Positions 3,151 to 20,323 of a stretch of 28,139 nucleotides of DNA are shown here, piece by piece. Position 1 is the stretch's first letter. The number at the start of each line of letters is the position of its first letter. The notes beneath the pieces are model-generated. The model ran no database searches. It saw only the letters and a list, made by a program, of their open reading frames with translations, and had not been told where the DNA came from. The position numbers and the translations under genes were made by a program. Origin of the DNA: a virus; the IMG/VR virus record IMGVR_UViG_3300027687_000055, positions 1-28,139 of that record; one strand, given 5' to 3'.

Positions 3151-3570
3151 ATGAGCGATAACGAAAATATTGACTGGTCACCTTCAGATATGCTTGAGGT
3201 TCTTTTAAACGAACCTGATGATTTCTTAAAAATAAAAGAAACATTAACAAGAATAGGTGTATCTTCTAAAAAAGAATACAACACTCTATTTCAAAGTTGT
3301 CATATTCTACACAAGCAAGGTAGATATTTTGTTGTTCACTTTAAAGAATTGTTTATGCTAGACGGAAAACCTTCTACATATACAAATGATGATTTAGGAA
3401 GACGCAATACTATCGCTACGTTGTTATCTGATTGGGGTTTACTTACTATTATAGATAAAAACCAAGCTGAAGTAAAAACATCTTTACGACAAATAAAAAT
3501 TATCTCGCACAAAGATAAAACCGAATGGACTCTTGAATCGAAATATTCAATTGGAAACGTAAAGAAATAG
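3151..3570 (+). CDS. regA: RegA translational repressor
   Basis: 139 aa. After an extra N-terminal 15-20 residues the sequence follows T4 RegA (122 aa) closely: DDFLKIKETLTRIGVSSKKE, LFQSCHILHKQGRYFVVHFKELF, RRNTIATLLSDWGLLTII, and a C-terminus ending KTEWTLESKYSIGN. T4 RegA is an RNA-binding protein that represses many early mRNAs by occupying the ribosome-binding region around AUG. Its place between 62 and 43 is conserved. Here a late-promoter box precedes it, so it may be expressed or boosted late. How RegA would act on the apparently leaderless early mRNAs of this phage is an open question. Confidence 0.95.
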   Translation: MSDNENIDWSPSDMLEVLLNEPDDFLKIKETLTRIGVSSKKEYNTLFQSCHILHKQGRYFVVHFKELFMLDGKPSTYTNDDLGRRNTIATLLSDWGLLTIIDKNQAEVKTSLRQIKIISHKDKTEWTLESKYSIGNVKK

Positions 3571-3578
3571 TATAAATA
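3571..3578 (+). promoter_or_regulatory. T4-type late promoter box before hsp20
   Basis: TATAAATA immediately after the regA stop codon. The expected transcript start, near 3584, falls at the foot of the 3583-3609 stem-loop, so the late mRNA would begin with a hairpin. Confidence 0.75.
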
Positions 3579-3582
3579 AACT

Positions 3583-3661
3583 TTTAAGGTAACACGCTGT
3601 TACTTTAAATGAGATGCCTTAGGGGTCTCACAACACATAACCTGCCTAACGGAGGAAACAA
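3583..3661 (+). promoter_or_regulatory. Structured hsp20 5' leader, candidate ROSE-like RNA thermometer
   Basis: Three successive hairpins can be drawn. The first is 3583-3593 with 3599-3609, 11 pairs including one G-U and a 5-nt loop. The second is TGAGA (3610-3614) with TCTCA (3626-3630), extended inside by CC/GG. The third is CCTGCC (3641-3646) with GGAGG (3651-3655), five pairs around a bulged G3644 and a TAAC loop. The third hairpin sequesters the full Shine-Dalgarno GGAGG, which lies 6 nt before the ATG. Stacked hairpins, with the last masking the SD opposite a bulged or mismatched G, are the hallmark of ROSE-type thermometers on small heat-shock genes. Function is inferred. Confidence 0.65.
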
Positions 3662-4099
3662 ATGACAAATACATACACATGGCCAGGCCAATCCTGGACA
3701 ATCGGTTTCGATTCTATGTTTGATAGAATCGAAAAACTACAATCACAACAACAAGGTTATCCACCTCACAATGTTGTGAATCACGGCGAAGACAAATACG
3801 AAATTGCTCTTGCCGTCGCAGGCTTCAACGAAAAAGATTTATTCGTTGAGCAAGAAGAAAACGTTCTCACAATCGCATCTAAAGATGTAGATCTGAACGG
3901 TGATAAGGAATACATCCATAAGGGTATTGCAACACGTAAATTCAAAAGAAAATTCACGTTAAGTGAATATGTTGAAGTTGAATCTGTCGCACTTGTAGAT
4001 GGTATTCTTTCTGTCTATCTGGTAAAAAATATTCCAGAAGAAAAGAAGCCTAAAAGTTTCACGATTGGATCTGAGACACCTCAGTTCCTTTCTGAATAA
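3662..4099 (+). CDS. hsp20: Hsp20 / IbpA-like small heat-shock protein
   Basis: 145 aa. It has an N-terminal arm with GFDSMFDRIEKLQ, an alpha-crystallin domain beginning around YPPHNVVNHGEDKYEIALAVAG and including ENVLTIASK and YIHKGIATRKFKRKFTL, then VDGILSVYLVKNIPEEKKPK as the end of the domain, and a short C-terminal tail. Small heat-shock proteins are ATP-independent holdases; phage copies are known in marine T4-like phages and are thought to help virion protein folding. The strong SD (GGAGG) is the best in the window but is buried in a hairpin. The gene interrupts the T4 regA-43 junction and has its own late promoter, so it is probably expressed with structural genes. Confidence 0.93.
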   Translation: MTNTYTWPGQSWTIGFDSMFDRIEKLQSQQQGYPPHNVVNHGEDKYEIALAVAGFNEKDLFVEQEENVLTIASKDVDLNGDKEYIHKGIATRKFKRKFTLSEYVEVESVALVDGILSVYLVKNIPEEKKPKSFTIGSETPQFLSE

Positions 4100-4183: not shown

Positions 4184-6658
4184 ATGATTTTAAGTGGATT
4201 CTACACAAGTATCGAAAGATTGGGGAACAGCCTATTATACCGTGGCTACGATGACGAGGGAAAAAAGATTTCCCATAGAATAAAATACAAACCAACGCTT
4301 TATCTTAAGTCTAAGAAACCCGTAACAGATTGGAAAGCGCTTGATGAAACACCAGTTGAACCTTTGCAGTTCGGTTCAATGTCTGAAGTTAAAGAATTTC
4401 AAAAGTCTTACAAAGGTGTACCTGACTTTTGCCTTTATGGTAATACTCGTCACATTCCTGCGTTTATTCAGAATCAGTTTCCCAATGAAATTGTTTACAA
4501 TCGCAACATGGTCGATGTTGCTTCTTTGGATATTGAAACCGCATATGGTGATGGCTTTCCTGAGGTAGACAATCCTGTCAATCAGATTCTTACGATTGCG
4601 TACAAAAGTTCAAAAGACGACACTTATCGTGTTTGGGGTATGAAACCTTACGATGAAGCAATCACCGCACTTAAGCATTTAAAAATCGAGTATCGTCAGT
4701 TCACTGAAGAATCTTCAATGCTTTCTGCATTCATCGACTATTGGGCAGAACCAGACAATACTCCTGATATCATCACCGGTTGGAATACTCGGTTCTTCGA
4801 TATTCCTTACATGGTAGCTCGAATGGCGTTCTTACTCGGCGAAGAAAAGGTTCGTAATCTTTCACCTTGGCGTAAGATCGAACGTAGGGAAATCTTTATC
4901 AAAGGTCGTCAGCAGATTACTTTTGACATCATGGGTATTCAACACCTTGATTATATGGAACTCTTTAAGAAGTTTGCATATACGTATGGTAATCAGGAAT
5001 CGTATTCGTTGAATCATATTTCAAGTGTAGTACTTGGTGAAAAGAAACTCGACTATTCTGAGGTTGGTACACTTCGTGACTTGTATGATGCAGACTTTCA
5101 AATGTTTGTTGACTACAACATTAAAGACGTTGAGCTCATCGAACGTATGGAAGAGAAGCTTGGCCTTATTACGTTGGTATTGACTATGGCGTATCTCGGT
5201 GGTGTAAACTATCAAGACACACTCGGTACAACCGCGATATGGGACTCAATTATTTTCCGTAGGCTAGCACGATCTAAAGTTGCAATTTTGCCTGCAGTTG
5301 ATCACGCTGCACAGCAGTTTCCTGGAGGTTACGTAAAAGAACCTCACGTAGGAATGCATGATTGGGTAATGTCCTTTGACTTGAATTCTCTTTATCCTAA
5401 TCTCATTGTGCAATACAACATGTCGCCTGAAACTTTAATCGGTGTTACTGATGCTGATGGTGCTAAAGCGTCTAATGGTGCAGTATTTCGTAAAGATAAG
5501 AAAGGTATTATTCCTGAAATTGTTGAAGAGTTGTATGCTAAGCGAGTAAACATTAAAGGTGACATGCTTACAGCTAAACACAAACTTGAAACAATTTCTA
5601 AACGACAACGTAAGGAATACCAACAAACATCTTCTCAGGTCGCACGTCTTGAAACCCTACAAACCGCGATTAAGATTCTTCTTAACTCTCTTTATGGTGC
5701 AATGGGTAACAAATACTTTCGTTACTTTGACATCCGTATTGCCGCAGGGATTACGTTGACTGGCCAAGAGGTTATCAAATATGCTGAAACAAAGGTAAAC
5801 ACTTTTCTTAATGACTTCATTGGCGAAGAAAAAGATCGTGTTATTGCGATGGATACTGATTCACTTTACGTTGGTGTAAGTGATCTAATTGAAAAGTTTA
5901 AGCCTAATAATCCTGTATCGTTCCTCGATGAATTTGGTTCTAAAGCTATTGAACCTATGCTTGATAAAGCCTTTGAAGAATTCGCAATTGCGAGCAATGC
6001 CTTTACAAATCGTATGGTTATGAAACGTGAAGCTATTGCTGATCGTGGTATTTGGACTGCAAAGAAACGCTACATCCTTAATGTACATAACAACGAAGGT
6101 GTTCAATACGCTGAACCTAAGATTAAGATCATGGGTCTAGAATCAGTTAAGTCTTCTACGCCAATGCCGTGTCGTGATGCTATGAGAAACCTATTTAAGG
6201 TTATTGTGACTGGTGATGAAGGTAAAACACAAGAAGCTATTGCGCTTTTCAAAGAACACTTTAAAACTCTTTCACCTGATCAAATCGCTTTCCCTCGTGG
6301 TGTAACTGATGTTGCAGGTTATGCAGACAACCAATTGATTTACCGTAAAGGTACACCTATCCATTGTCGTGGTGCGTTACTCTACAATCACTATACAAAA
6401 GCAAAAGGCTTAGATAAGAAATACCAATTGATTCAAAATGGCGATAAAATCAAGTTTATCTATTTATTAGTTCCTAATGTTATTCAAGAAAATGTAGTTG
6501 CGTTCCCGGATTATTTACCAGACGAATTAGAACTTCATAAATACATCGACTACAACTTACAATTTCAAAAGACCTTTATTGACCCAATGGATATCATACT
6601 CAATGCTATTGGTTGGTCAGCCGAACCTAGAGCGGATTTACAGCAATTCCTATTTTAG
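4184..6658 (+). CDS. 43: gp43 family-B replicative DNA polymerase
   Basis: 824 aa (T4: 898). Exonuclease motifs: DIE at 116-118 (Exo I), NTRFFD with D206 (Exo II), and YNIKD with Y311/D315 (Exo III). Polymerase motifs: A, DLNSLYP with D399; B, KILLNSLYGAMGN beginning K497; C, MDTDS with D557/D559; a KKRY-type segment follows. All proofreading and polymerisation carboxylates are present, so the enzyme should be active. The C-terminal QQFLF resembles a clamp-binding peptide. The gene stands alone after hsp20, with its own promoter at the ATG and no Shine-Dalgarno on the predicted transcript. No intein or intron interrupts it. Confidence 0.97.
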   Translation: MILSGFYTSIERLGNSLLYRGYDDEGKKISHRIKYKPTLYLKSKKPVTDWKALDETPVEPLQFGSMSEVKEFQKSYKGVPDFCLYGNTRHIPAFIQNQFPNEIVYNRNMVDVASLDIETAYGDGFPEVDNPVNQILTIAYKSSKDDTYRVWGMKPYDEAITALKHLKIEYRQFTEESSMLSAFIDYWAEPDNTPDIITGWNTRFFDIPYMVARMAFLLGEEKVRNLSPWRKIERREIFIKGRQQITFDIMGIQHLDYMELFKKFAYTYGNQESYSLNHISSVVLGEKKLDYSEVGTLRDLYDADFQMFVDYNIKDVELIERMEEKLGLITLVLTMAYLGGVNYQDTLGTTAIWDSIIFRRLARSKVAILPAVDHAAQQFPGGYVKEPHVGMHDWVMSFDLNSLYPNLIVQYNMSPETLIGVTDADGAKASNGAVFRKDKKGIIPEIVEELYAKRVNIKGDMLTAKHKLETISKRQRKEYQQTSSQVARLETLQTAIKILLNSLYGAMGNKYFRYFDIRIAAGITLTGQEVIKYAETKVNTFLNDFIGEEKDRVIAMDTDSLYVGVSDLIEKFKPNNPVSFLDEFGSKAIEPMLDKAFEEFAIASNAFTNRMVMKREAIADRGIWTAKKRYILNVHNNEGVQYAEPKIKIMGLESVKSSTPMPCRDAMRNLFKVIVTGDEGKTQEAIALFKEHFKTLSPDQIAFPRGVTDVAGYADNQLIYRKGTPIHCRGALLYNHYTKAKGLDKKYQLIQNGDKIKFIYLLVPNVIQENVVAFPDYLPDELELHKYIDYNLQFQKTFIDPMDIILNAIGWSAEPRADLQQFLF

Positions 6659-19803: not shown

Positions 19804-20323
19804 CGTATTAGAAGCAGCATTAGCATTTCATAACGATAACCAAATACCATTGGCTCATAATGTTTTCCGCCCTCATTCTGAAAACTACTATAAGCTGTTC
19901 TCCTATGCACGGAATTTAAAAGAGTCAATTCAATTAACAGAGTTTGATGAGTATTTACTTTCAACTGACATTGGCGAATTTGGATTACACGAAGGTGAAG
20001 AAGTACCTTTAGATCACCCTTTCATTAATGAAGCTGCAGAATACAAAGGTAAAGAGGTTAAATTAAACGACCCTAAGCGTGGAGGTAAAAAGAAATTTTA
20101 TGTTTATGTTAAAAACGATAAAGGTAACGTAATCAAAGTTCAATTCGGAGATACATCAGGTTTATCTGCAAAGATAAATAACCTTGCAGCGAGAAAATCA
20201 TTTGCAGCACGTCACAAGTGTGCTGCTAAAAAAGATAAAACAAAACCAGGCTATTGGTCTTGCAATCTTCCTAGATATGCAAAAGAGCTTGGACTAAAAG
20301 GTGGAGGAAACTTTTTCTGGTAA
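19796..20323 (+). CDS. DUF5872-like phage protein with processing site
   Basis: 175 aa from ATG 19796, overlapping the previous stop by 8 nt (an ATG 12 nt upstream is also in frame). The N-terminal 80 residues are not recognised. Then DHPFINE and AAEYKGKEVKLNDPKRGGKKKFYVYVKN, followed by VIKVQFGD and RKSFAARHKC ... YWSCNLPRYA, form a compact domain I know from many phage virion-associated proteins (DUF5872-like). The (I)NE/A junction lies directly before the domain, where a gp21-type prohead protease would cut. The conserved Cys/His/Trp could bind a metal. Function unknown; virion association is inferred. Confidence 0.75.
   Translation: MSNVLEAALAFHNDNQIPLAHNVFRPHSENYYKLFSYARNLKESIQLTEFDEYLLSTDIGEFGLHEGEEVPLDHPFINEAAEYKGKEVKLNDPKRGGKKKFYVYVKNDKGNVIKVQFGDTSGLSAKINNLAARKSFAARHKCAAKKDKTKPGYWSCNLPRYAKELGLKGGGNFFW

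Follow-up and report, generated by a model that had tools for sequence, protein, structure and literature searches.

A conserved ROSE-type leader precedes hsp20 in T4-like phages and likely functions as an RNA thermometer

Results

The hsp20 locus and its leader

The DNA analysed here (the window), a fragment of 28,139 bases, comes from an uncultivated virus and carries T4-type replication genes, among which a clamp-loader subunit gene, regA, hsp20 and the DNA polymerase gene follow one another; the polymerase is closest to that of Phage C48C1 (47.6%), followed by that of cyanophage S-T4 (46.6%). The translational repressor gene regA (3151–3570, plus strand; Pfam Translat_reg, E 3.9e-41) adjoins the hsp20 leader on its 5′ side, and hsp20 (3662–4099, plus strand) encodes an IbpA-like small heat-shock protein of 145 amino acids (Pfam HSP20, E 5.5e-16), which matches the NCBIfam IbpA model with 107 bits (E 6.2e-31), under the model's 212-bit cut-off. 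Between the regA stop at 3570 and the hsp20 ATG at 3662, the interval is filled by a TATAAATA box and three hairpins. The box (3571–3578, plus strand), recognised by its sequence, lies directly 3′ of the regA stop codon; we take it to be a late promoter of the kind used by T4-like phages, and by the T4 late-promoter rule the hsp20 transcript would presumably start at about 3584. Other TATAAATA boxes, presumably late promoters as well, occur within 130 nt 5′ of the window genes at 1318, 3151, 16878, 23731, 26371 and 26741, and one of these six would drive regA, usually an early gene.

All three hairpins lie on the plus strand. Hairpin 1 (HP1, 3583–3609), with 11 conserved pairs and one closing A-U pair, would stand where the late transcript is predicted to begin. 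Hairpin 2 (HP2, 3610–3630) folds as UGAGAU-[G3616]-CC-UUAG-GG-GUCUCA and has two near-equivalent registers, one with the bulged G3616 and a tetraloop, the other, favoured by the folding program, with a G-G mismatch and a triloop. Hairpin 3 (HP3, 3641–3655), CCU-[G3644]-CC-UAAC-GG-AGG, is supported by folding, conservation and covariation and masks the Shine-Dalgarno (SD) sequence GGAGG (3651–3655). This is the arrangement that a first-pass annotation of the DNA had described: sequence and fold contain three hairpins before hsp20, the first with 11 pairs and the third pairing CCUGCC with GGAGG around a bulged G3644 and the 4-nt loop UAAC. Its further claim that the hsp20 SD is the strongest in the window does not hold, as the gene at 20323 also has GGAGG. 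The bulged-G motif in HP2, and the encoded protein as a possible second sensor, had been overlooked.

The RNA from 3571 to 3680 has a predicted energy of −23.8 kcal/mol, compared with −12.5 ± 2.7 for shuffled sequences (z −4.2; 0 of 200 as stable), and HP3 has a predicted −5.1 kcal/mol at 20 °C and −3.1 at 37 °C. Near their starts, 18 of 35 other window genes have some hairpin of three pairs, a bulge and two pairs. When the 5′ side was shuffled with the SD kept, a comparable hairpin arose in 45% of cases, with a bulged G in 13%. HP3 alone, judged from one sequence, is not beyond chance; it is conservation and covariation that make it real.

Of 70 distinct leaders, 53 have a TAAATA box no farther than 130 nt 5′ of hsp20, compared with 10 of 35 other window genes. 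In cyanophage leaders this box mostly ends 2–5 nt before HP2, and in the window's group it ends 4 nt before HP1, so that the mRNA should start at a hairpin in both cases; a hairpin placed there probably serves to stabilise the transcript.

Conservation and covariation of the leader hairpins

We surveyed the leaders of 76 IMG/VR hsp20 loci (L051 was dropped for having too little upstream DNA) together with those of 24 isolate records, removing duplicates by leader sequence before hairpins were counted. The gene is widespread in T4-like cyanophages, with 439 of 507 matched phage records named Synechococcus or Cyanophage. In 59 of 62 distinct leaders, the SD is enclosed in a masking hairpin that has a bulged G; L059 has none, and in L074 and L101 the best script match is C-bulged, with shorter G-bulged SD hairpins readable by eye. 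When the bulge base was left free in the search for the upstream hairpin (HP2), the best bulge was a G in 68 of 69 distinct leaders, compared with 11.7% of shuffled sequences; a G with a score at least as high as the real one arose in 0.8% of all shuffles. In the single exception, L098, the top match is another hairpin that lies farther upstream; the usual one can be made out by eye. Since the leaders share kinship, these counts are not independent events, and changes in base pairs are the better evidence.

Such changes are found at the outer pairs of the SD hairpin, where anti-SD and SD occur as CCU/AGG (as in the window), CUC/GAG, CUU/GAG, GUC/GAC (S-RSM4 and ACG-2014e), AUC/GAU (HTVC103P) and CAC/GUG (S-TIM5), always with the bulged G beside them. 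Four of these phages thus have the non-consensus SDs GGAC, GGAU or GGUG with exactly compensated anti-SDs: S-RSM4 (L080, 1454–1503), ACG-2014e (L098, about 423–474), HTVC103P (L086, 1418–1473) and S-TIM5 (L087, 1414–1458). In leaders of this kind, the start codon can abut the SD hairpin.

MAFFT alignments (A1, A2) misplaced the SD across loops of different length, and pairs were therefore counted on a model-fitted alignment (A4) of 41 leaders. Standard pairs make up 96.9% of its 489 cells, compared with 81.1% when the 3′ letters were shuffled, both-side changes occur at 11 of 13 pairs and 83 cells are double changes against 22.4 in shuffles, figures somewhat inflated by the fitting of this alignment to the structure. 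The aligned leaders are also related to one another. The covariation score is 0.459, compared with 0.200 in shuffles (0 of 500 as high), and slid registers all give far lower pairing. The first-pass annotation had named beforehand, as an observation its proposal depended on, that anti-SD and SD should covary in homologues, and both the hairpin survey and the pair counts show that they do. In HP1, the 11 pairs are kept in all 14 distinct versions of the 27-nt hairpin (154 of 154 cells), and 1000 shuffles gave a mean of 128.6 paired cells and a maximum of 139; this hairpin is confined to the window's subgroup and absent in cyanophages.

ROSE-type leaders extend across cyanophages, pelagiphages, a methylotroph phage and a Pseudomonas jumbo phage. 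The last of these, PA5oct (L101, 407–455), carries a two-hairpin leader on an hsp20 that adjoins clpS; it scores 34 bits with the phage-only model described below, of whose training set it is part. Four contigs (L059–L062) have their last 45 nt in common, and L059 has HP2 without a clear SD hairpin.

Searches with leader models

To search sequences with the element itself, we used two models. The first, R1, was built from 12 cyanophage leaders with the window's group left out, and it locates the window element at 3610–3662 (27.2 bits, E 1.7e-4 in 291 kb), which gives support independent of the structure-fitted alignment. Across 59 sources, the 43 top-scoring matches of R1 all fall on hsp20 leaders, of which 31 lie outside the training set. 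The second, R2, is a phage-only model. In 24 whole phage records at E≤1, it gave one match each in 19, all at the hsp20 start, and no site away from hsp20; as these 19 matches all fall on training sequences, the absence of other sites is the informative part. Among the five records missed, four have both hairpins by inspection and the fifth is the bacterial-like leader L081. In 20 IMG/VR records, R2 matched hsp20 in 19 and gave four stray matches (E 0.25–0.90). It gave no match in G031, the record of L014, although the last 45 nt of L014 are those of L010, in which both hairpins are present by inspection.

We also scanned DNA for the motif first, ignoring the protein, and found hsp20 directly downstream at 151 of 159 sites among the matches listed (at least 120 from a first scan and 39 from a second, many of the 39 being contigs already counted). 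The remaining 8 sites lie at contig ends, with at most 166 nt of contig left. A scan of genome contigs for a bacterial donor of the phage element returned a single distant MAG locus, and the source was not found. Together, the leader is a real, conserved, hsp20-specific element of ROSE type.

Relation to bacterial ROSE elements

ROSE elements are described as having one or more stable upstream hairpins and a last hairpin that masks the SD with a G opposite it, with U(U/C)GCU as the literal anti-SD motif (PMC3669281, PMC11342760; partial texts). Such elements have two to four hairpins, the upstream ones stable; three are present in the window and two in cyanophages. The SD lies in a 3′-proximal imperfect hairpin with a G opposite (G3644 in the window), and the leader stands 5′ of an IbpA-type small heat-shock gene, to which it is exclusively coupled. 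The literal U(U/C)GCU is not in the window, which has CUGCC instead, compensated by GGAGG; the last 40 nt of 62 distinct leaders contain U(U/C)GCU in 37, CUGCC in 25, neither in 4 and both in 4.

The ROSE-like plan proposed in the first-pass annotation is supported by Rfam ROSE_3 (RF02523), which aligns at the window site over its whole length (model positions 1–69 of 69), covering both bulged-G hairpins, with 19.0 bits (E 0.048 in 141 bases), and likewise spans the full model in other phages. The gathering cut-off of 43 bits is missed by the window and by every T4-like phage scanned (at most 34.1 bits). Because the literal motif is absent and the score lies below this cut-off, we class the window element as a ROSE-type variant and not as a plain member. 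In 30 IMG/VR records, ROSE_3 reached E<0.01 in 8, all 8 at the hsp20 start; in 11 isolates it gave matches in 6, including the hsp20 start for Melnitz-3 (34.1 bits), C48C1 (26.8 bits), P-RSM4 and S-CAM3. Two matches in ACG-2014a, within coding genes, and a second match in the window at 2242–2303 were dropped as chance. The sole record above the cut-off is Pseudomonas phage Y7 (OQ572409.1, L081; W04 5126–5192), with 69.2 bits before an IbpA-like gene; this record, which is unverified, is probably bacterial DNA.

Scanned at gathering thresholds, neither the window nor 10 loci had an Rfam match at the element, the 5 matches obtained in these loci being tRNAs, and ROSE_2 matched none of the phage leaders to which a permissive threshold was applied. 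The wcaG and manA motifs were considered since both occur in cyanophages, and neither matched; manA in particular gave no match at its gathering threshold in the window and 10 loci, nor at E≤10 in 3560–3700. The manA RNA motif has been reported 5′ of genes for the chaperone IbpA, chiefly in T4-like cyanophages and in metagenomes from the sea (PMC2864571, partial text).

Among bacterial leaders used as yardsticks, Rfam identifies Salmonella ibpA as ROSE_2 and the Rhizobium sullae and Sphingobium hsp20 leaders as ROSE. Each of these three has, when read by eye, an upstream hairpin with a bulged G, which for the two ROSE leaders also appears in the Rfam consensus line. The phage-only model R2 matches the Salmonella ibpB leader (19.6 bits, E 8.7e-4; ibpB ATG at 1085). 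This ibpA-ibpB leader, in a Salmonella-derived record (L104, 1011–1083), has an upstream bulged-G hairpin and a CUC-[G]-CUU core, and it has no Rfam match among those listed at E≤1. The bacterial ROSE leaders L104, L105 and L106 all contain an upstream hairpin with a bulged G beside C-C/G-G pairs, as in phage HP2. R1 gave no match on the bacterial-like leader L081, and R2 gave none on L105, L106, L081 and L103, although Rfam assigns L105 and L106 to ROSE and L081 to ROSE_3; the phage model thus does not reach all ROSE types. As judged from these sequence comparisons, a common origin of the phage element and the ROSE leaders of bacteria is very probable.

Predicted opening of the Shine-Dalgarno hairpin

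The predicted cost of opening the SD of window hsp20 falls from 7.9 kcal/mol at 5 °C to 6.8, 5.7, 4.4 and 3.9 kcal/mol at 15, 25, 37 and 42 °C. At 25 °C, it lies within the range of three bacterial ROSE leaders (4.6–5.9 kcal/mol), compared with a median of 2.1 kcal/mol for other window genes (23 of 35 scorable), 2 of 23 of which equal or exceed hsp20; the median for the 57 scorable distinct phage leaders is 5.1. These energies depend on the modelled 3′ end: when the RNA is cut at 3691, the anti-SD pairs with coding sequence and the cost is halved. Between 15 and 25 °C the predicted open fraction of the SD grows about 9.5-fold, and between 25 and 37 °C 11.6-fold, a graded opening with no sharp switch. 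Even at 42 °C the SD is predicted to be mostly paired, so that competition by the ribosome would be needed. In silico loss of G3644 approximately doubles the opening cost, which is what a bulge that sets the melting point would lead one to expect. Deletion of the G opposite the SD reduces or abolishes output in Pseudomonas ibpA (PMC3669281, partial text). Swapping arms between lineages did not significantly lower predicted stability (p 0.21).

Possible modes of control

The region 3571–3661 is probably the 5′ UTR of an hsp20 transcript made late, and it probably controls translation as a ROSE-type element that warming opens. We infer that transcription starts from the late box, that the closed leader represses translation and that heat is the opening signal. 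At low temperature, HP3 would keep the SD closed; warming would melt its short helix, weakened by the bulged G3644, and give the ribosome access, so that Hsp20 would be made on demand from pre-existing mRNA. HP2, with HP1 in the window's subgroup, would remain folded and protect or scaffold the 5′ end. The leader thus likely functions as a thermometer.

The encoded protein raises another mode of control, in which free Hsp20 would bind its own leader and keep it closed, alone or on top of temperature, until aggregates late in infection titrate it away and the leader opens; both bulged-G motifs would then be protein contacts. IbpA of E. coli, Cedecea and Vibrio binds the ibpA 5′ UTR and represses its own translation, for which R93 is essential and irreplaceable and Y34 and the basic residues 97 and 98 are also involved (PMC10474464, partial text). 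Window Hsp20 keeps the equivalents of all four E. coli residues (Y34, R93, R97 and K98). Among 69 phage Hsp20s, all have an aromatic residue at position 34, 66 have a basic one at position 97 and 61 retain R93; the other 8 have K in its place, the change that inactivates E. coli IbpA, and only 16 are basic at position 98. One Hsp20 with K at the R93 position is that of L059. The kept residues, together with an HP2 that lies away from the SD and yet has a bulged G as conserved as that of HP3, make an aggregation-sensing feedback a serious possibility from the sequences, alone or with temperature. Open-ocean temperature, moreover, is generally steady. Against this, proteobacterial IbpAs in general share the key residues, whose retention may have other causes, and we regard the feedback as possible but on balance unlikely.

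A broader form of this idea, put forward tentatively and with somewhat less expectation, is that marine T4-like phages could carry a complete proteostasis sensor derived from proteobacteria, made up of an IbpA-type chaperone and a late two-hairpin ROSE leader, that would chiefly sense free chaperone, with temperature secondary and the bulged-G hairpins acting as Hsp20-binding sites. Free chaperone would then be a readout of aggregation during massive capsid synthesis, and Hsp20-binding bulged-G hairpins would account for hairpin I of ROSE elements in bacteria as well.

HP3 might instead be a static attenuator that fixes a low initiation rate and responds neither to temperature nor to protein, as the graded predicted opening, small in absolute terms, would allow. 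A fixed rate, however, needs no bulged G in 59 of 62 leaders, SD and anti-SD change together where the SD could simply weaken, and the sequence-level relation to known thermometers would be left unexplained; we therefore consider an attenuator improbable. That the leader might be an operator, bound by RegA or by some other translational repressor of the phage, is suggested by the position of regA as the next gene upstream and by the role of the RegA family in repressing translation of phage mRNAs. RegA acts on many early mRNAs, however, whereas R2 found no further sites in whole phage genomes (E≤1), and the element persists away from regA (for example in L079, L083 and L091) and in bacteria, all of which makes such an operator very unlikely. 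Chance hairpins in an AT-rich leader, for which the frequency of bulged hairpins near other window starts might speak, are contradicted by covariation, bulge identity and gene specificity and can be practically discounted.

Discussion

A ROSE-type leader on the hsp20 of this marine phage, carried by its relatives as well, has apparently gone unnoticed so far. Among the papers listed from the open PMC literature, outside which most subscription journals fall, so that priority is unproven, we found no report of a ROSE element in phages and no description of the control of phage hsp20. The main text on the small heat-shock protein of cyanophage S-ShM2 (PMC5028025) contains neither 'thermometer' nor 'untranslated'. 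With this leader, one can test whether viruses of the sea use their mRNAs to sense temperature or proteostasis, and its natural variants, with compensated SDs down to GGUG, are ready-made tests of ROSE helices and of the upstream bulged-G hairpin.

Known phage thermometers are those of lambda cIII, SP-beta blyA (fourU) and a gut-phage sigma70 gene (fourU) (PMC11182007, PMC4166951; partial texts), and a paper of 2024 puts the number of thermometers in phage genomes at just two, with the SP-beta element as the second (PMC11182007, partial text). Like the leader described here under its thermometer reading, these are temperature-responsive leader RNAs in phage genomes, but none belongs to the ROSE type or lies on a small heat-shock gene.

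The closest likeness is instead to bacterial elements. The phage leader shares with ROSE_3 (RF02523) the succession of a GAUGCC...GGGUC bulged-G hairpin, a linker, a bulged-G hairpin that masks the SD, and the AUG; it differs in that T4-like phage hsp20 leaders score 12.7–34.1 bits, have a shorter HP3 and stand in a late-promoter context, with HP1 as an addition in the window's subgroup. The CUC-[G]-CUGA...UCAG-GAG core of ROSE_2 in Salmonella ibpA follows the plan of phage HP3, and the enterobacterial ibpB leader is recognised by the phage-only model, whereas the bacterial copies belong to genes under a heat-shock sigma factor, as described for Pseudomonas ibpA (PMC3669281, partial text). Like the phage leaders, the short ROSE element of Pseudomonas ibpA has two hairpins, with a G opposite the SD in the second; its hairpin I is stable and its hairpin II senses temperature. 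It differs from the window in having the literal U(U/C)GCU where the window has CUGCC (PMC3669281, partial text).
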